Made by a program: the position numbers and the translations under genes. Positions 9,057 through 64,000 of a stretch of DNA of 64,000 nucleotides are shown here, one piece after another. The DNA is from Qipengyuania algicida (GTDB lineage: Bacteria > Pseudomonadota > Alphaproteobacteria > Sphingomonadales > Sphingomonadaceae), in contig NZ_WTYA01000001.1 in assembly GCF_009828025.1 (NCBI RefSeq), positions 186,001-250,000 on the forward strand, read 5' to 3'. A model generated the notes under the pieces. That model was not told the origin of the DNA, did not search any database, and worked only from the letters and a program-made list of their open reading frames with translations. Position 1 is the first letter of the stretch, and every line of letters starts with the position of its first letter.

Positions 9057-9865
9057 GATGCGGCGGCCTGGCTGCGTAGGGCGCGCAGGCGGGTCATCGC
9101 GCGAATGATCGTCGGCCCGCCGCAATAGAGCAGGTTCGGCGCAAACGGCGCGATGGTCGTGTGGTTCAATTGGCGCAGCACCGGGTGATGCTGCCCACGC
9201 GCGCTGCCAGCGACCAGCAGCACTTGCGGCGGATGCGCCACCACCTGTTCGAGCGAGAGATAGGCCCCCTGCCCCATGCCGCGCTCCGCCGAATAGCTGG
9301 TGAAACCTGCACGGCCGAGCAGGTCGCTGATCAGCGTTCCCGCACCCGGCACGATCCCGCCCGGTTGCCACAGCGCGGCGGTGATCGGCTTGCCGCCAAC
9401 GAGCTTCGCTGCCTTCGCAATCCGCTGGGCCAGCGCGCTTCCCCGTGCAGGATGCCCCGTCAGCGCGGCGATGCGGCGGACCTGCGCCTCGCTCTCCTCG
9501 ACGGTGCTCGCGATACCGAACGTCTCCACCCTCAGCCCCAGCCGCCGATAAGCCGCGAGCGTCGACGGTGCGGTGAAGCTGCTCGCCAGCACGAGGTCGG
9601 GGTGCAGCTCCAGCACCTCCTCCGCGCTGCCGCCGGTCGCATGGAGGCTGCGCGCGGTGGCAAGGTCCATCGAGGTCGAGCGCGGGTCCTGGCTATAATG
9701 TGAGATGGCGAGGATCTGCGCGCGATCGGCCACATCCGCGACGATCGCATCGGTGCAGGGATTGAGGCTGACGATGGTGGGGTGCTCCCGCGGCGCGGCG
9801 GCAGGCGTGGCGCTGGCCGCGCATCCCGCCAGCATCAGCGCCGCAAGGAGCACGCCGGATTTCAC
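9053..9865 (-). CDS. btuF: Cobalamin-type substrate-binding lipoprotein (BtuF-like)
   Basis: A 270-residue helical-backbone binding protein. The signal peptide ends in the lipobox LMLAGC (Cys at residue 15), so it is a lipid-anchored periplasmic protein. The mature part begins with the class III start (IVSLNPCTDAIV) and keeps the family pattern HPDLVLASS and a late LYCGGP segment. It hands B12 from the receptor to the BtuC permease. ATGA overlaps link it to the receptor gene upstream and the permease downstream. Confidence 0.9.
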   Translation of the reverse strand: MKSGVLLAALMLAGCAASATPAAAPREHPTIVSLNPCTDAIVADVADRAQILAISHYSQDPRSTSMDLATARSLHATGGSAEEVLELHPDLVLASSFTAPSTLAAYRRLGLRVETFGIASTVEESEAQVRRIAALTGHPARGSALAQRIAKAAKLVGGKPITAALWQPGGIVPGAGTLISDLLGRAGFTSYSAERGMGQGAYLSLEQVVAHPPQVLLVAGSARGQHHPVLRQLNHTTIAPFAPNLLYCGGPTIIRAMTRLRALRSQAAAS

Positions 9866-11847
9866 ATCCGGCCCCTCACCCCGATAAACGCCCCGCGTCC
9901 GGGCGAACCATACCCCGCCGCCGTCTGGTAGCTTTCGTCGAAGATGTTTTCGACCCGCCCGAACAGATCGATATCATGCGTCAGTGGTACAGAGGCGGTG
10001 ATGTCGGCCAGCGTGTAGCCCGCCAGCCGGTCAACTTCACCGGCCTTGTCGTAACTTGGGCCGACCAGCCGCAGCTGCCCGCCCAATGTCACCCCGAACG
10101 GTGCGGTGTAATCGGCATGGACCGTCGCCATGTCGCGCGGCCTGCGCGCCAGATCGAGGCCGGTGCCGCGATCCTGCGCGGTCAGATGGGTGTAGTATCC
10201 CGCCAGACGCAGGCCCGGCGCAAGCTGCGTGCCCGCCTCCAGCTCGATCCCATGCGCGCGCGCGCGGTCGGTGTTGTCATAGGTGCCAAAGGGCCGGTTG
10301 GTGCAGATTCCGCCGGTCACGCCGAAGCAAGAGACGAAGGTAATCAGCTGCGAAGAATCGCGCCGGAACGCGGTCAGCGCGAAATGCGTGCCTTCCCCGC
10401 GCGTGCCATGCTCGATCCCGAAATCGACGCTGGTGCTGGTCTCGGGCCGCAGCTGCTGGTTGCCGTAATCGGAATAGAGTTGATACAGCGTCGGTGGCTT
10501 GAACCCCTCGCCATAGCTGGTGCGCAAACGCCAGCCGTGTCCGAGGCCATAGCTGATATCGCCGCCAAGGCTCACCTTGCTGCCGAAGCGTTCATGATCG
10601 TCGACCCGCGCCCCGGCATGGGCCGCCAGATTGCCGAGAACCCAGCCCGCCTGCAGATAGCCGCCGGTGATACTGGTGGCGGCATGGGCGTCATAGCTCG
10701 TCTGGTAGCTGGTGCGTTCATGCTCGCCACCGAACGCCAGCGTCAGCCCGCCGATCAGGCGATATTCGCCGCGCAGGCTGACCATGTCCGAATGCCCGTC
10801 TCCGGTGAACGTCGGCGCGGGTCCGGTCGCGGGATCGAAATTGTCGCGCGCGGTATCGGCAAACGACCATGCGCCGCGCAGGGTCAGATCCATGCCGTAA
10901 TAAGCCAGACCCAGCGCGCCCGAATATTGCTTAGTCGTCTGCGTTTCGTCGGTATCGGCCAGCACGTAATTGGGCGGCGGGAAGCCGTCGATGTCGAGAT
11001 GGGCGTGCGAATAGCGGCCATTGGCGAAAGCTTCGATCTGCGGGGTCAGGTCGACATGCGCCGTGCCGCCCACGCCCCACTGCCTCAGCCCGTCGGGCTC
11101 GGTCCCGTCGGCGGCGGCGGAAAAGCCGTCGGACCGGATCGCCGCACCGCCCAGCCCAATGCTGTAGCCATCGCCCTTGATCCCCGCCGAAGCCTGCGTC
11201 GTCAGCGTGTTGCGCGCGCCATATTCGACGCTCGCGCCAAGGCCGGGCGTCGCGCGCGTGGTGATGTCGACCACCCCGCCCATCGCGTCCGCGCCCCAGA
11301 TGGTGCTGTTCGATCCGCGCAGGAAATCGATCCGGCTGATGTTGCTGGCGAGCAGCGTGCCGAAATCGAAGCCGCCCGCGGGTGAGGACGGATCGGCCAC
11401 GCGCACCCCGTCGATCAGCACCAGCAGCTGATCGGCATCGGCTCCGCGTACGCTGACCCCGGTGTAGGAGCCGAGCGGGCCGTTGCGGGTCAGACTGACC
11501 GAGGGAACCCGCTCCAGCACGCGGGCAATGTCGGCGCCCTGCACGGCGTCGATCTCTTGCCGGTCGATCAGCGTGACCGGTTGACCGGTGTTCTCGATCG
11601 AGGTCGACAGGCCATTGGCGGTGACGGTGATCGTCGGGGCATCGTCGGTTGCTGTCGCAGCGCGATCATGCCGCGCCGCCGGAACGGGTGTCGGTGTCGG
11701 AGCCGGGGCGGGTGCAGGCTCCCCCTGCCGGGCAAGGATTTCGGCGACCGCTGCGTCACCGGCATCCTGCCGCTGTTGCTGCGCATCCTGCGCATGGGCC
11801 GCCGATGCAATCAGCGAAACGGAGAAAAGAAACAGATATTTGGACAC
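9862..11847 (-). CDS. btuB: TonB-dependent outer membrane receptor, vitamin B12 (BtuB-like)
   Basis: A 661-residue receptor: signal peptide ending in AHAQ, a short Gln/Ala/Pro linker, a TonB-box-like PTITVTA segment, a plug domain with SVRGADADQ and GSNSTIWG motifs, and a beta-barrel ending in GVRGRM. Most barrels end in an aromatic residue; the terminal Met here is unusual. I chose the GTG at 11847 because GGAGG stands 4 bases upstream and the residues after it form a perfect signal peptide. An ATG at 11880 in the same frame would add 11 poorly fitting residues. It is the first gene after the cobalamin riboswitch, which assigns the ligand. Confidence 0.92.
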   Translation of the reverse strand: MSKYLFLFSVSLIASAAHAQDAQQQRQDAGDAAVAEILARQGEPAPAPAPTPTPVPAARHDRAATATDDAPTITVTANGLSTSIENTGQPVTLIDRQEIDAVQGADIARVLERVPSVSLTRNGPLGSYTGVSVRGADADQLLVLIDGVRVADPSSPAGGFDFGTLLASNISRIDFLRGSNSTIWGADAMGGVVDITTRATPGLGASVEYGARNTLTTQASAGIKGDGYSIGLGGAAIRSDGFSAAADGTEPDGLRQWGVGGTAHVDLTPQIEAFANGRYSHAHLDIDGFPPPNYVLADTDETQTTKQYSGALGLAYYGMDLTLRGAWSFADTARDNFDPATGPAPTFTGDGHSDMVSLRGEYRLIGGLTLAFGGEHERTSYQTSYDAHAATSITGGYLQAGWVLGNLAAHAGARVDDHERFGSKVSLGGDISYGLGHGWRLRTSYGEGFKPPTLYQLYSDYGNQQLRPETSTSVDFGIEHGTRGEGTHFALTAFRRDSSQLITFVSCFGVTGGICTNRPFGTYDNTDRARAHGIELEAGTQLAPGLRLAGYYTHLTAQDRGTGLDLARRPRDMATVHADYTAPFGVTLGGQLRLVGPSYDKAGEVDRLAGYTLADITASVPLTHDIDLFGRVENIFDESYQTAAGYGSPGRGAFIGVRGRM

Positions 11848-11851
11848 AAAA

Positions 11852-11888
11852 CCTCCATCGTGAACGGTTGTGCCGCTCATGACGGAGG
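11852..11888 (-). promoter_or_regulatory. Ribosome-binding-site sequestering helix of btuB
   Basis: On the minus strand CCTCCGTC (11888-11881) can pair with GATGGAGG (11859-11852) over 8 bp including one G-U. The second arm is the ribosome binding site of the GTG start at 11847. A second hairpin, GAGCGC/GCGCTC (11908-11889), lies directly upstream and could stack on it. No T-run follows, so control is likely at translation initiation. This also supports the GTG start. Confidence 0.55.
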
Positions 11889-11949
11889 GAGCGCAAAGAG
11901 ACGCGCTCACCCGTTTGCCATCGGTGCACCCCGCCCGTGGCCGAACGAC

Positions 11950-12120
11950 CGTCATCGGCAGGTCTCCTGGCTCCCGGATCATCGGCCCGCCCCCGCCTTC
12001 CCGACGCGCCCGAAAGCGGTATCAGTGGCATATTGGAGGCGGCCCTCCCCGGTCACAGTTGCGGGGGCAGCGGGAGCTTCGCACTCCCTTCCCTCTTAGG
12101 ATCCGGCCCTCTTGCGAAGG
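11950..12120 (-). promoter_or_regulatory. Cobalamin riboswitch
   Basis: On the minus strand the segment contains the complete B12 box AGCCAGGAGACCTGCC (11972-11957). Upstream are the core features CTGCCCCCGCAACTGTGA and an AAGAGGGAAGGGAG start, then GGGAAGGCGGGG. These match the class consensus in the right order. The ligand is adenosylcobalamin or a related form; binding switches off B12 uptake genes. The distance from the B12 box to the btuB start is about 110 bases and holds the sequestering helix. Exact ends are approximate. Confidence 0.95.
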
Positions 12121-12145
12121 ATGGATCAACCCATGACGTGCGCGG

Positions 12146-12174
12146 CCCTTAGGCGCGGCTGATCCGGCTGGCAA
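12146..12174 (-). promoter_or_regulatory. Possible sigma-70 promoter of the B12 operon
   Basis: On the minus strand TTGCCA (12174-12169) is followed after 17 bases by TAAGGG (12151-12146). The -35 box matches 5 of 6 positions but the -10 box is poor. The predicted start would fall about 20 bases before the riboswitch core, which is a sensible position and the main argument for it. Confidence 0.3.
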
Positions 12175-31450: not shown

Positions 31451-31756
31451 TTACTTCTCCATGCTCCACAGGGTCCGGCCGAACGGCGCTTCGCCCTATC
31501 TCATCGCGGTTACCACCGACGGGCACAGCGGGCTTGCTGACACAAAAAGCCCGGATGGCTGGCAAAAAGGCTGCCGCCTGCCGGACTGACCCCGAATACC
31601 TGTCGAATGAAGGGCGCGCTTACGGCGATTCGACCGCAAGGTCAACCGCTAACCACACGCAAACCATCGCGACCGCCGATATGGGCGGTGCGAACCGTGA
31701 TGCAAGGTTTTTTACACCAGCCCCCAAGGTTGTCAAAGCTCTGGCTGGCGCAAGGT
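31451..31756 (-). other. Leader region of the alpha operon, no gene
   Basis: No credible reading frame was found. The stretch holds the promoter candidate at 31709-31736, leaving an untranslated leader of about 250 bases. Within it CGGGCTT/AAGCCCG can pair around 31530-31553 on the minus strand without a following T-run. In other bacteria protein S4 regulates the alpha operon at such a leader; rpsD is not in this window. Confidence 0.5.
31709..31736 (-). promoter_or_regulatory. Candidate sigma-70 promoter for rpsM-rpsK-rpoA-rplQ
   Basis: Minus strand: TTGACA (31736-31731), a perfect -35 box, then 16 bases, then TAAAAA (31714-31709) as -10 box. It lies just after the stop of the preceding SDR gene. 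The perfect -35 and its position make it more convincing than other promoters noted in this window. Confidence 0.6.
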
Positions 31757-32533
<777 letters not shown>

Positions 32534-32578
32534 GGATTGGCTCCCTATGTCCTTCCCTGTCGAAAGGCGTGAGGCGGC

Positions 32579-58537: not shown

Positions 58538-60685
58538 ATGAATGCCCCGGAGACGATAGCAAACCCGGCCATGGAGCAGGAGCGCCACCAGCGCTATGTC
58601 AATCGTGAACTGTCGTGGCTGGCCTTCAACCGCAGGGTTCTGGCCGAGGCCGAGAACACGCGTTACCCGCTGCTCGAACGGCTGCGTTTCCTGTCGATCT
58701 CGGCCAGCAACCTCGACGAATTCACGATGATCCGCATTGCCGGTCTCGAAGGCATGGCAACGCGCGGGATCGAAACCACCGCGATCGACGGTACTACGCC
58801 GCGCCAGCAGCTCGACGCCATTCGTGAGGATGTTTTGCAGATCGAAGACCGACAGCAGGCGATCCTGACCGACCTGCGGCACATGCTCGCAGAAGAAAAT
58901 ATGCTGATTGCCGAGATCAACCAGCTTTCTATGCGAAATCAGGAATGGTTGCAGCAGTATTTCGAAAACGAAGTCCTGCCGCTGATTACCCCGCAGGCGA
59001 TCGATCCCTCGCACCCCTTCCCCTTCGTCGCCAATCTCGGAATGGGGGTGATCTTCACGCTCGAACGGATCAAGGGTGGCAACGATCTGGTCGAGATGGT
59101 GCTGATCCCCAGCGGCGCGCCGCGTTTCGTGCGCGTTCCGGGCGACAAGGCAATCTATATCGCGATCGAGCAGCTGATCGTGCGTTTTGCCGACCTGCTG
59201 TTTCCGGGCTTCCGGATCAAGGGCGATGGCCTGTTCCGGGTGTTGCGAGACAGCGATATCGAGGTCGAGGAAGAGGCAGAGGATCTGGTGCGCGTGTTCC
59301 GCAGCGCGATCCAGCGCCGCCGCCGTGGCCGCGCGGTGCTGCTGGAACTCGACGAGGAATGCGATGCTGAGGCCGAGGCTGTCCTGCGCGAGGAATTCGA
59401 CGTCGACAGCGCGATGGTGGTCAAGACCGAGGGTATGCTGGGTCTACGCCATCTCGATGCGATCTGTGCCGAGCCGCGCCCGGACCTCAAATTCTCGCCC
59501 TTCAGCCCGCGCTATCCCGAGCGCGTCCTGGAGCATGACGGCGATTGCTTCGCCGCCATCCGCGAGAAGGACATCATCATCCACCACCCTTACGAGAGCT
59601 TCGAGGTGGTGGTCGACTTCGTCCAGCAGGCGGCACGCGATCCTTCGGTCGTTTCGATCAAGCAGACGCTCTATCGCGCGGGCGACCAGTCGCCGATCAT
59701 AAACGCGCTGGTCGAGGCGGCGCAGAACGGCAAGGCCGTGACCGCGGTGGTCGAATTGAAGGCCCGCTTCGACGAGGAGCGCAACCTCAAATGGGCCAAT
59801 GAGCTTGAACGCGCAGGCGTGCAGGTCATTTACGGGTTCGTCGAATGGAAGACCCACGCCAAGGTCAGCCTGGTGGTCCGTCGCGAGGACAATTCCTATC
59901 GCACATACTGCCATTTCGGCACCGGCAATTACCATCCCGTGACGGCAAAGATTTATACCGACCTCAGCTTCTTCACTGCCAACCCGTCATTCGGGCGGGA
60001 CGCCGCCAAACTGTTCAATTTCATCACCGGCTATGTCGAACCGCACGACCTTGAACAGCTGGCAATCTCGCCCCTGAATTTGCGCGACGAACTCTACGCA
60101 CGGATCGACCGAGAGATTGAATTCGCACAAAAGGGCCGGCCGGCAGGTATCTGGGCAAAGTTCAATTCGCTCACCGAAAAGGGTGTGATCGACCGTCTGT
60201 ATGCCGCAAGCCAGGCGGGCGTGGAGATCACGCTGGTGGTGCGCGGGATCTGTTCGCTGCGTGCGGGCGTTCCGGGCCTGTCGGAAAATATCAAGGTCAA
60301 GTCGATCATCGGACGCTTCCTCGAACACAGCCGCATCTGGGCCTTCGGCAATGGCTACCAGCTGCCGAGCCGCCGGGCGAAGGTGTATATCACGTCCGCC
60401 GACGCGATGGGCCGCAATCTCGACAGGCGCGTCGAAGTGCTGGTGCCAATCACCAATTCCACCGTGCACGACCAGGTGCTCGATCAGGTGATGCTGGCCA
60501 ATATCCTCGACACCGAACGCAGCTGGCGACTCGATCCCGATGGGGAATACCACCGCATGGCCATTGGCGACGGCGGCTTCAACTGCCACGACTACTTCAT
60601 GAGCAACCCTTCGCTTTCGGGCCGCGGCGCAGCGATCGAGGACCGTGATGTGCCGCGCCTGTCGCTCAGAGATCGCCGCAAGTGA
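58538..60685 (+). CDS. ppk: Polyphosphate kinase 1
   Basis: A 715-residue enzyme that reversibly makes polyphosphate from ATP. Catalytic histidines are H440 (KTHAKV) and H459 (HFGTGNY), 19 residues apart as in Escherichia coli (435 and 454). The N-terminal RYVNRELSWLAFNRRVL and the ATP-loop segments are present. I take the ATG at 58538 with GGAAAG 10 bases upstream; in-frame ATGs at 58508 and 58439 would add non-conserved residues. It overlaps ppx (GTGA). Confidence 0.96.
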   Translation: MNAPETIANPAMEQERHQRYVNRELSWLAFNRRVLAEAENTRYPLLERLRFLSISASNLDEFTMIRIAGLEGMATRGIETTAIDGTTPRQQLDAIREDVLQIEDRQQAILTDLRHMLAEENMLIAEINQLSMRNQEWLQQYFENEVLPLITPQAIDPSHPFPFVANLGMGVIFTLERIKGGNDLVEMVLIPSGAPRFVRVPGDKAIYIAIEQLIVRFADLLFPGFRIKGDGLFRVLRDSDIEVEEEAEDLVRVFRSAIQRRRRGRAVLLELDEECDAEAEAVLREEFDVDSAMVVKTEGMLGLRHLDAICAEPRPDLKFSPFSPRYPERVLEHDGDCFAAIREKDIIIHHPYESFEVVVDFVQQAARDPSVVSIKQTLYRAGDQSPIINALVEAAQNGKAVTAVVELKARFDEERNLKWANELERAGVQVIYGFVEWKTHAKVSLVVRREDNSYRTYCHFGTGNYHPVTAKIYTDLSFFTANPSFGRDAAKLFNFITGYVEPHDLEQLAISPLNLRDELYARIDREIEFAQKGRPAGIWAKFNSLTEKGVIDRLYAASQAGVEITLVVRGICSLRAGVPGLSENIKVKSIIGRFLEHSRIWAFGNGYQLPSRRAKVYITSADAMGRNLDRRVEVLVPITNSTVHDQVLDQVMLANILDTERSWRLDPDGEYHRMAIGDGGFNCHDYFMSNPSLSGRGAAIEDRDVPRLSLRDRRK

Positions 60686-62193
60686 TCACCGGCGCAACGC
60701 GCACTCGCAATGGTAAGCGGCGAAGCCACGAAACAGCCCGCGCGGTTATCGACATCGGTTCGAACACCGTTCGCCTGGTAATCTATGGCGGACCGAGCCG
60801 TGCGCCCACCGTGCTGTGGAACGAAAAAGTCGCCGCCCGGCTCGGTCGCGATCTTGCAGCCAGCGGAACCATTCCCGACGAAGCGATGGACGAGGCGCTT
60901 TCCGCGCTGGCCCGCTATGCGGTGATCCTGCGCGACTGGGAGATTACCGAAGTCGAGGCCGTCGCGACCGCCGCTCCGCGCGACGCTGACAATGGCATGT
61001 TGTTTCTCGATCGTGCGGCATCGCACGGGCTCGATATAAGGTTGCTCAGCGGTGAGGAAGAAGCCTGCGCAAGCGCCTATGGTGCTATCGGCGCGTTTCC
61101 CGGCGCATGCGGCACGGTGATCGACCTTGGCGGCGGCAGTCTGGAACTGGTGGTGATCGGTGACGGCGAATGTCGCGAAGCTGCGAGTCTGCGGCTGGGT
61201 ACGTTGCGTCTCCCGGCCATGCGCGCGAAGGGCAATTTTACGAAGAAAGTCCGCAAGGCGCTGGACGAGGCAGGCTGGGCGCACAACGAGCCGGGACCGT
61301 TCTACATGGTCGGAGGGACGTGGCGTGCTTTCGCCACCTACGCCATGCGGGCAAGCGAATATCCGCTGACCGATCCGCACGGCTTCGAGCTACCTGCCGA
61401 AGAAGCCGCACGGCTGGCGACAAAGCTGATGCGCTTGCGGCCGGAAAAGCTCGCCAACATCCGCGGCATCAGTTCGATGCGCGCCGAAAAGCTGCCCGAT
61501 GCTGCGGCATTGCTGCAAGTGCTGATGGCCGAGATATGCCCGGAACAGCTGGTGTTCTCGAGCTGGGGCTTGCGCGAGGGATTGCATTACCAGCGCCTCG
61601 AACCGCTCGAACAAGCCAAGGACCCACTGCTCGCGGGCGTTGCGGCATTTGCCGGTACACGTGGGGCAAGCGTGACCGATGCAGCGCTGCTCGCAGGCTG
61701 GAGCGCCGCCGTCGCGCGCCATGGAAGCGCGCAGAATGAACGACTCCGGCTCGCCGCCGCCCAACTCGCTCTCGCGCTGCACCGTGTGGAACCCAATCTG
61801 CGTGCCGCCCACGCGCAGGAATGGGCGCTCGACAAGCGGTGGATCGATTGCGACGGACGCAGCCGGGCGATGCTTGCCGCTGCGCTGCTCGGCAGTCTCG
61901 GGATCACCGCAATGCCGGAGAGGATCCGCCTGCTCGCAAATGAAGACGAATTGGGCGAAGCGATTACTTGGGGTATGGCCTATCGTCTTGCCCAGCGTCT
62001 CGGAGCGACTGCGCGCGGTGCGCTATCGGCCAGCGCACTGGCGACCGAAGATGACCGGCTGACCTTGAGCATCGCCGAAGATCATGCCGCGCTGGCGGTC
62101 TATCCGGTGATCAAGGACTTGGCTAACCTGGCGTTCCGGCTGGACCGGGAACCACATATCGAGATCAGCGCCGGCGTGCAGGAAGACATCTGA
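60682..62193 (+). CDS. ppx: Exopolyphosphatase / guanosine pentaphosphate phosphatase
   Basis: A 503-residue ASKHA-fold phosphatase releasing phosphate from polyphosphate chain ends, with possible activity on pppGpp. Motifs are VIDIGSNTVRLVIY at about 22-35, ATAAPRDA, the LSGEEEA site and the second phosphate loop IDLGGGSLELVV. A C-terminal HD-like helical domain follows. It starts with GTG overlapping the ppk stop by 4 bp, so both are translated together, forming a synthesis and degradation pair. It is convergent with the broken regulator gene, 11 bp apart. Confidence 0.95.
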   Translation: MITGATRTRNGKRRSHETARAVIDIGSNTVRLVIYGGPSRAPTVLWNEKVAARLGRDLAASGTIPDEAMDEALSALARYAVILRDWEITEVEAVATAAPRDADNGMLFLDRAASHGLDIRLLSGEEEACASAYGAIGAFPGACGTVIDLGGGSLELVVIGDGECREAASLRLGTLRLPAMRAKGNFTKKVRKALDEAGWAHNEPGPFYMVGGTWRAFATYAMRASEYPLTDPHGFELPAEEAARLATKLMRLRPEKLANIRGISSMRAEKLPDAAALLQVLMAEICPEQLVFSSWGLREGLHYQRLEPLEQAKDPLLAGVAAFAGTRGASVTDAALLAGWSAAVARHGSAQNERLRLAAAQLALALHRVEPNLRAAHAQEWALDKRWIDCDGRSRAMLAAALLGSLGITAMPERIRLLANEDELGEAITWGMAYRLAQRLGATARGALSASALATEDDRLTLSIAEDHAALAVYPVIKDLANLAFRLDREPHIEISAGVQEDI

Positions 62194-62204: not shown

Positions 62205-63116
62205 TCAGACCGGCGTTGCAATCCCTGAGCCCAGTCGATCGAAATTGCGTGCCATCGCCTCAGCGGTGCGATCGGACAAGGCAATGAACACGCGGCGGCG
62301 GTCCTCCCCATCCTCTTCGCGCACCAGCAGCCCGGCTTCGACCATCTGCGCGATTCAGCGCAAAGCCATCGTCGCCGGAACCGCTGCGGCGATACACAGC
62401 GTGGATGCGGACACACGCTTGTGCTCGGCGCGCGCGGCCGTCAGGTCGAGCAGCATATCCCATGCCGGATCGGCAAACAGCTCAGCGCCGAGAAGTTCAT
62501 CGCGCAAACGGCGCTGGGCGATGATCTGCCGGACCAGCCGCGGATCGGGCAGCGGCGGGCGGGCATGGCGCCGTTGATTCTGCGCGTCGTGTGACATAGC
62601 ACGATAGGAGAGACTGGATGCCGCCAACCTCTCGCCTTGGTCCTCCATATCGCTTTCAGACGAAATACCCTCGAGCCGCGCCGCCAGCCGCCCGACTTCC
62701 TGCGTGAGCTTGAGCAGGGTCGAACGGTCCTGCGGGTCCAATTCACGCAGACGGCGCCCCGGCATTCGTGTCAGCGCCTCACCCAGCGCGACCAGCCGTT
62801 CGGCACGGCTCGGCCTGACCAGCAGGATCGGTCTGGACCATTCGAGGCAGGCGAACACGTCATCGAGCGCATCGTGCGAGGTGGCCACCACGAGTTGCGC
62901 GCCGGAGCGTCTGGCCCGCTCATCAAGGCGCAACAGCGCCACGTATTTCGAAGCATCGAGGGATGGTCAATCGACCAGCACCACGCCGCCGAGGACTCCC
63001 GCATCTGCGTCCACCAGCGTGCGGAGCGAGAGCCCCGCAGTCGGCACGAGCCCCGCGCTGCGCGCATCCTCCGCCATGATCGCGAGAGTTTCGGAACTAT
63101 CCCCAAAAAGCGACAC
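62205..63116 (-). pseudogene. Regulator of the sphingomonad winged-helix type, broken by two in-frame TGA codons
   Basis: One frame of 304 codons is intact except for TGA at codon 50 (62969-62967) and TGA at codon 254 (62357-62355). The text around them reads GVVLVD-stop-PSLDA and PATMALR-stop-IAQMVEAG. In relatives, as I remember them, these places hold Cys (LVDCP) and Trp (ALRWI), each one base from TGA. The C-terminal part (LLDLTAARAEHKRVS, then REEDGEDRRRVFIALSDR) is a MarR-like winged helix; the N-terminal part looks receiver-like. The presumed GTG start has no good ribosome binding site. No frameshift is present, so decay is recent or the stops are errors. Confidence 0.8.
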
Positions 63117-63285
63117 CGTTACAGCGAGTTGCGAGAGCCATGAGCCCTCTTCTTACACCGCGTCATCGCATCGATAGGCAGCCTGCGCCATGCGTGTTCC
63201 CCCTTGTTTCACAGAGAACAAAAGTCGAATGAGTCAAGAATGAGTACAGCAGAATCCTCCCGCCATTCGGGCGGTCCGTGAGGAC

Positions 63286-64000
63286 TCAATCCATGAACGG
63301 GTCGCGCACCAGGATCGTGTCTTCACGTTCGGGACTGGTCGAAATCAGCGCAACCGGTGTTTCGATCAATTCTTGGACGCGGCTGATATATTTGATCGCC
63401 TGCGCGGGCAGATCGGCCCAGCTGCGCGCACCCGCCGTGGTCTCGCGCCAGCCTTCCATTTCCTCGTAGATCGGCTCGACCGCGGCCTGATCGGCAGCGT
63501 GGGAAGGCAAATAGTCGAGAATCTTGCCGCGCAGCCGATAGCCGGTGCAGATCTTCACCATATCGAAGCCGTCGAGCACGTCGAGCTTGGTCAGCGCGAT
63601 CCCGGTGACGCCGCTGATCGCGCAGCTCTGGCGCACCAGCACCGCATCGAACCAGCCGCAGCGGCGCTTGCGCCCGGTGACGGTGCCGAATTCATGACCC
63701 CGCTCGCCCAGCTTCTGTCCGATCTCATCATCGAGCTCGGTCGGAAACGGACCGCTGCCGACGCGGGTGGTGTAAGCCTTGACAATTCCCAGCACGAAAC
63801 CGGTTGCGCCAGGCCCCAGCCCCGATCCGCTGGCAGCAGTGCCGCTGACGGTGTTGGAGCTGGTCACGAAGGGATAGGTGCCGTGATCGACATCGAGCAG
63901 CACGCCCTGCGCGCCTTCGAACAGGATGCGCGCGCCTGCCTTGCGCACCTTCTTCAGGCGCTTCCACACCGGCTGGGCGAAGCGCAGCACGAAGGGCGCA
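63286..64000 (-). CDS. purA: Adenylosuccinate synthetase, C-terminal part (start outside window)
   Basis: The frame is open to the last base, so the N-terminus lies beyond the window; 237 residues are visible. They contain [25 protein letters not shown], the [12 protein letters not shown] segment and the C-terminal [24 protein letters not shown] signature of PurA, which makes adenylosuccinate from IMP, Asp and GTP. The stop is followed by only a short CCGCC/GGCGG hairpin without a T-run. The adjacent upstream gene is unknown. Confidence 0.97.

Follow-up and report, generated by a model that had tools for sequence, protein, structure and literature searches.

A regulator gene of Qipengyuania algicida that is interrupted by in-frame stop codons raises the question of whether it has decayed, is intact and was miscalled in sequencing, or is still translated, wholly or in part, despite its stops. 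The gene was analyzed in the window, that is, the whole stretch of 64,000 nucleotides. On the minus strand, positions 62205–63116 read as a frame of 304 codons, interrupted by TGA at codons 50 and 254 and closed by a final TGA, and translation of this strand confirmed the two TGA codons at 62967–62969 and 62355–62357 that had been noted in a preliminary description. However, that description began the gene at a GTG codon and reported no damage beyond the two TGAs, and both statements had to be revised. Upstream, the frame extends to an ATG at 63189–63191, from which it reads through the residues MAQAAYRCDDAV, a TAA at 63153–63155 and EEGSWLSQLAVT before reaching the GTG. The 11 nearest homologues (L003–L013) start with MAQLAY or a similar sequence, 25 to 33 codons ahead of the GTG position, the spacing in L005 being 25 codons and identical to that of the window gene. 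By eye, the ATG is preceded by the Shine-Dalgarno-like AAGGGGGAAC, while no Shine-Dalgarno sequence was seen before the GTG. The true gene is therefore placed at 62205–63191, with three premature stops, and a tblastn match with the G054 protein likewise crosses three stops. The TAA site falls in a poorly conserved N-terminal segment. The features of the gene are as follows.

62205..63191, minus strand: very probable pseudogene, 329 codons from ATG to TGA, of a regulator with receiver-like and MarR-type winged-helix domains (translation, alignment to 109 homologues, Pfam HTH_27)
63192..63205, minus strand: Shine-Dalgarno-like AAGGGGGAAC and spacer before the ATG (motif judged by eye)
63153..63155, minus strand: premature stop TAA, codon 13 of the 329-codon frame (translation of the extended frame)
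62967..62969, minus strand: premature stop TGA, codon 75 of the 329-codon frame and codon 50 of the shorter one, where 106 of 109 homologues have Cys (translation, alignment, model of L003)
62355..62357, minus strand: premature stop TGA, codon 279 of the 329-codon frame and codon 254 of the shorter one, where 108 of 109 homologues have Trp (translation, alignment, model of L003)

The frame is taken as a real gene because of its homology, with an E value of 3e-97 to G042. In 500 base shuffles of the gene, a frame carried 8.6 stops on average and 6% had four stops or fewer, to be compared with the four stops of the window gene when its final stop is included.

The distribution of the gene was then assayed by searching 60 genomes of the same genus with a query that began at the GTG. 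Matches were found in 58 of them (own genome included), the two misses being genomes of 79% and 75% completeness, and in 57 of the 57 genomes with a completeness of 90% or more and a contamination of 5% or less, again with the own genome included. A pseudogene is expected to be disrupted by mutations while its relatives stay intact; against the three stops of the window copy, no internal stop was found in the best match of any other same-genus genome that had one (57 genomes), and the open frames around these matches reach 329 aa or more everywhere but in G027. In a broader search of the family, over 397 genomes drawn from a larger group, 161 had a match at an E value of 1e-40, and among the matches listed, stops were seen by eye only in G000 and G324, the stop in G324 being the protein end. 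At 79 of the 109 homologue loci the gene adjoins purA, and the same holds for 10 of the 11 nearest; the remaining loci often have short flanks. The two neighbors in the window are given below; polyphosphate kinase also lies on the exopolyphosphatase-like side, opposite purA.

63286..63999, minus strand: purA (adenylosuccinate synthase), upstream neighbor, open frame, C-terminal 237 residues in the window (NCBIfam adenylosuccinate synthase, E 1e-108, partial and hence under the cut-off)
60682..62193, plus strand: exopolyphosphatase-like gene (ppx), convergent neighbor, open frame of 503 aa (NCBIfam TIGR03706, E 4.8e-78, under the cut-off)

To examine the residues replaced by the two TGA codons, the gene was aligned with 109 homologues, 29 from same-genus genomes and 80 from the genome collection, leaving out the own-genome loci L001 and L002 and the weak paralogues L032 and L033. 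Homologue starts were chosen by rule within limits, the N-terminal lengths of distant rows being partly set by that rule, and the reading of row L095 (the N. album gene, from G324) runs beyond the final stop of that gene. The Cys and Trp proposed earlier for these positions were borne out: the first TGA column holds Cys in 106 of 109 homologues (78 TGC, 28 TGT) and V, V and A in the remaining three, and the second holds Trp (TGG) in 108 and R in one. No homologue in the alignment carries a stop at either column. Val or Ala stands in place of Cys in 3 of the 11 nearest homologues, so that the Cys is not strictly required.

The homologues span about 320 to 350 residues, and the AlphaFold2 model of one of them, L003 (mean pLDDT 80, pTM 0.47), runs from a domain of five-fold beta-alpha order through a long helix and a low-confidence stretch to a winged helix. 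Foldseek matches of the modeled protein in the PDB include receiver domains (TMt about 0.6–0.7) and MarR-family structures. The read-through protein of the window gene matches PF13463 at 29.7 bits, above the cut-off of 22.2, with the MarR models under cut-off; HTH_27 matches 38 of 38 homologues and MarR 31 of 38 (E 0.1), L003 itself matching HTH_27 at 20.1 bits, under the cut-off. Thus, the C-terminal domain matches the family model of the MarR-type winged helix, and the protein resembles MarR-family regulators both in these matches and in the structures found with the model. The modeled protein also matches receiver structures, and its N-terminal part, a candidate receiver domain, has the five-fold beta-alpha order; in contrast to receiver-domain regulators, the Pfam receiver model reaches only 2 of 38 homologues, and weakly (E 0.1). 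In the L003 model, the third strand of this receiver-like part is directly followed by the site of the first TGA, next to an Asp just before the Cys that is nearly invariant in 38 sequences and is a candidate phospho-acceptor, and the second TGA cuts a helix of the winged-helix domain. Judging from the model and the family matches, the product of the intact gene is most likely a transcription regulator.

Besides the stops, the window copy carries missense changes at conserved sites. Among the 64 columns that show a conservation of 97% or more in the other sequences, it departs at eight, two by stops and six by missense changes (A84V, V262A, S264T, T275M, A301V and Y316N, in window numbering), while the other 109 sequences depart at three at most, with a median of 0. 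The preliminary description had argued that the damage consisted only of TGA codons in an otherwise intact gene, and this argument fails because of the TAA and these changes at conserved sites. The excess of departures depends on the conservation threshold: the window copy departs at 5 of 48 columns at 99% or above (others at most 2) and at 8 of 69 at 95% or above (others at most 6), while at 90% or above its 11 of 90 are second to a maximum of 12 among the others. Inspection of 17 alignment rows by eye showed no frameshift, which counts against a pseudogene, as some tens of neutral substitutions are inferred.

Selection on the gene was evaluated with 17 chosen sequences, of which L005 and L036 were dropped for want of a full purA, leaving 15. 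Whole-branch dN/dS gave no sign of relaxed selection (0.10 vs. 0.14, 2 delta lnL 0.52) on a branch that is saturated; the highest value on six control branches was 0.33, for L007. The long terminal branch is probably mostly older than the damage. A first neutral-tail test, which combined three site classes with codon-frequency mutation, did not support a neutral tail (0.017 per codon, 2 delta lnL 0.26); scores above that of the window copy came from two intact genes (L008, 3.01; L113, 2.17). With a nucleotide mutation process and the stops masked, the best tail length was about 0.15 substitutions per codon with a gain of 4.1 lnL, the largest of the 15 taxa for the regulator gene (next, 2.55 and 2.54), and the same test on purA of the same genome lost 17 lnL units. 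However, this version is noisy, because for purA of L049 it raised a false alarm, with a gain of 11 lnL units. At 0.15–0.3 substitutions per codon, 0.8–1.5 stops are expected and the probability of three or more is 0.05–0.20. The data fit a pseudogene that is young relative to its long branch, although the statistics alone would not prove so.

If the gene were intact in the organism, the three stops would have to be miscalled bases from sequencing or assembly. The absence of stops from the same-genus relatives and the low branch-wide dN/dS are what such errors would also leave, and many putative bacterial pseudogenes are attributed to assembly errors in PMC11017572. However, three substitution errors in one gene without an indel would be odd, six conserved-site missense changes accompany the stops, and the genome, in 21 contigs, has a rated completeness of 99.99% and a contamination of 0.02%, so that errors are an unlikely source of the stops.

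Alternatively, readthrough or recoding of UGA would yield the full-length regulator, perhaps at a low level. Both TGAs lie at conserved positions, a Cys and a Trp, one base away from the usual codons of the homologues, and in-frame stops in genes with dN/dS below 1 are described by Belinky et al. (2021; PMC7918605) as widespread in bacteria and are proposed there to be read through. The window gene is similar to those genes in its in-frame TGA and its long-term dN/dS below 1, but that study focuses on stops in orthologues of two or more species, whereas neither TGA column has a stop in any of the 109 homologues. Moreover, the TAA precedes both TGAs and must also be passed, and a single UGA decoder would need to supply two different residues, Cys and Trp.

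Machinery for reading the stops was sought in the genome. There were no matches to selA and seven to selB, none of them over the cut-off, and of 12 matches to the tRNA-Sec model the only one over the cut-off is a tRNA-Ser by ARAGORN; 8 of the 12 were read and none was tRNA-Sec. Selenocysteine insertion was not supported on these grounds. The locus shares with selenoproteins a UGA at a conserved Cys position, but differs in lacking this machinery among the matches obtained, in its second UGA at a Trp and in the TAA upstream. None of the 43 tRNAs found, a set that is incomplete in that it is without tRNA-Ile GAT and tRNA-Ala TGC, has a stop-reading anticodon (TCA, TTA or CTA). The tRNA-Trp has the anticodon CCA and, by eye, a normal 5-bp anticodon stem; a tRNA-Trp with a 4-bp stem is the form linked to UGA reading in PMC13092985. 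Neither a suppressor tRNA nor such a 4-bp-stem tRNA-Trp was found among the 43. With no Sec machinery or stop-reading tRNA found in the genome, readthrough or recoding in the gene is very unlikely. That near-cognate misreading still yields very small amounts of the regulator, its stops being tolerated for that reason, is very improbable; if true, it would amount to a permanent tuning-down of the regulator instead of its loss.

A shortened product could still be made and serve a purpose, such as one that begins at a downstream start and ends at the second TGA, and a 195-aa open frame is present between the TGAs (62355–62942). However, this frame is without part of the receiver-like domain and without the end of the DNA-binding domain, no Shine-Dalgarno sequence is seen by eye ahead of the in-frame GTG at codon 26 or the ATG at codon 39, and conserved winged-helix residues are changed. 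A useful truncated regulator is thus hardly to be expected. Of the explanations offered in the preliminary description, namely a recent pseudogene, sequencing error or readthrough, the first gained support from the three stops and the conserved-site missense changes, and readthrough lost it, as no machinery was found.

In another genome of the genus, G027, the match to the regulator is split over two contig ends, L222 at the end of G027:C3 and L223 at the end of G027:C31. By eye, a 14-base perfect inverted repeat lies next to CTAG, with CTAG at both ends, within the coding sequence. This orthologue looks to have been broken independently by an insertion-sequence-like element, because an insertion sequence that breaks the assembly would leave such a repeat and CTAG at the contig ends. 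If so, the gene would be dispensable in another species of the genus. Two same-genus genomes hold a second, shorter relative that covers the C-terminal ~180 residues (G028:C1:2209803-2210336 and G037:C7:1002117-1002659). In the viral_contigs collection, five records (L193, L195, L197, L201 and L205) start or end within ~210 bases of a relative of the regulator; these contigs are perhaps the bacterial flanks of prophages near the gene.

Interrupted frames elsewhere in the window were also sought. A codon-usage scan gave nothing usable, being swamped by antisense shadow frames, and comparison of the window with two 200-kb stretches, from the relatives G042 and G054, gave matches only at the regulator, at purA and at one weak place. 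The last, at 31739–32566 on the minus strand, has 28% identity to a G054 protein frame with one stop in the match, which may be only a gene end. A cobalamin riboswitch lies at 11940–12149 on the minus strand (Rfam RF00174, 122.5 bits) and overlaps the start of a TonB-dependent receptor gene (9862–11982, minus strand).

Taken together, the locus is very probably an ordinary nonsense pseudogene, derived from a regulator that combined a receiver-like part with a MarR-type one. The ancestral gene, probably functional, would have lain just downstream of purA and encoded an N-terminal receiver-like alpha/beta domain, a helix with a linker and a C-terminal MarR-type winged helix. A nonsense mutation would have inactivated it in this lineage; at least two more would then have followed, along with several missense changes where the family is conserved, all ahead of any visible frameshift or deletion. 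Translation from the proper start would now end after 12 residues, and a complete DNA-binding domain would be impossible without reading a stop. The three stops, the conservation of the gene and of the replaced residues, and the missense changes are direct observations; from them we infer the order of events, the loss of function and the present absence of selection. The locus resembles other bacterial nonsense pseudogenes in being a conserved gene with in-frame stops in one lineage, intact orthologues and missense changes at conserved sites; it differs in having three stops with no visible frameshift, and is otherwise not unusual.

The finding matters little beyond correct annotation. It removes one candidate for UGA recoding in this bacterial group, and the stops are not a sign of an altered genetic code. 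It also suggests that the genus can do without a regulator present in all 57 of the well-completed genomes searched, since the gene seems to have been broken on two separate occasions and in different ways, through nonsense mutation here and through an apparent insertion sequence in G027.
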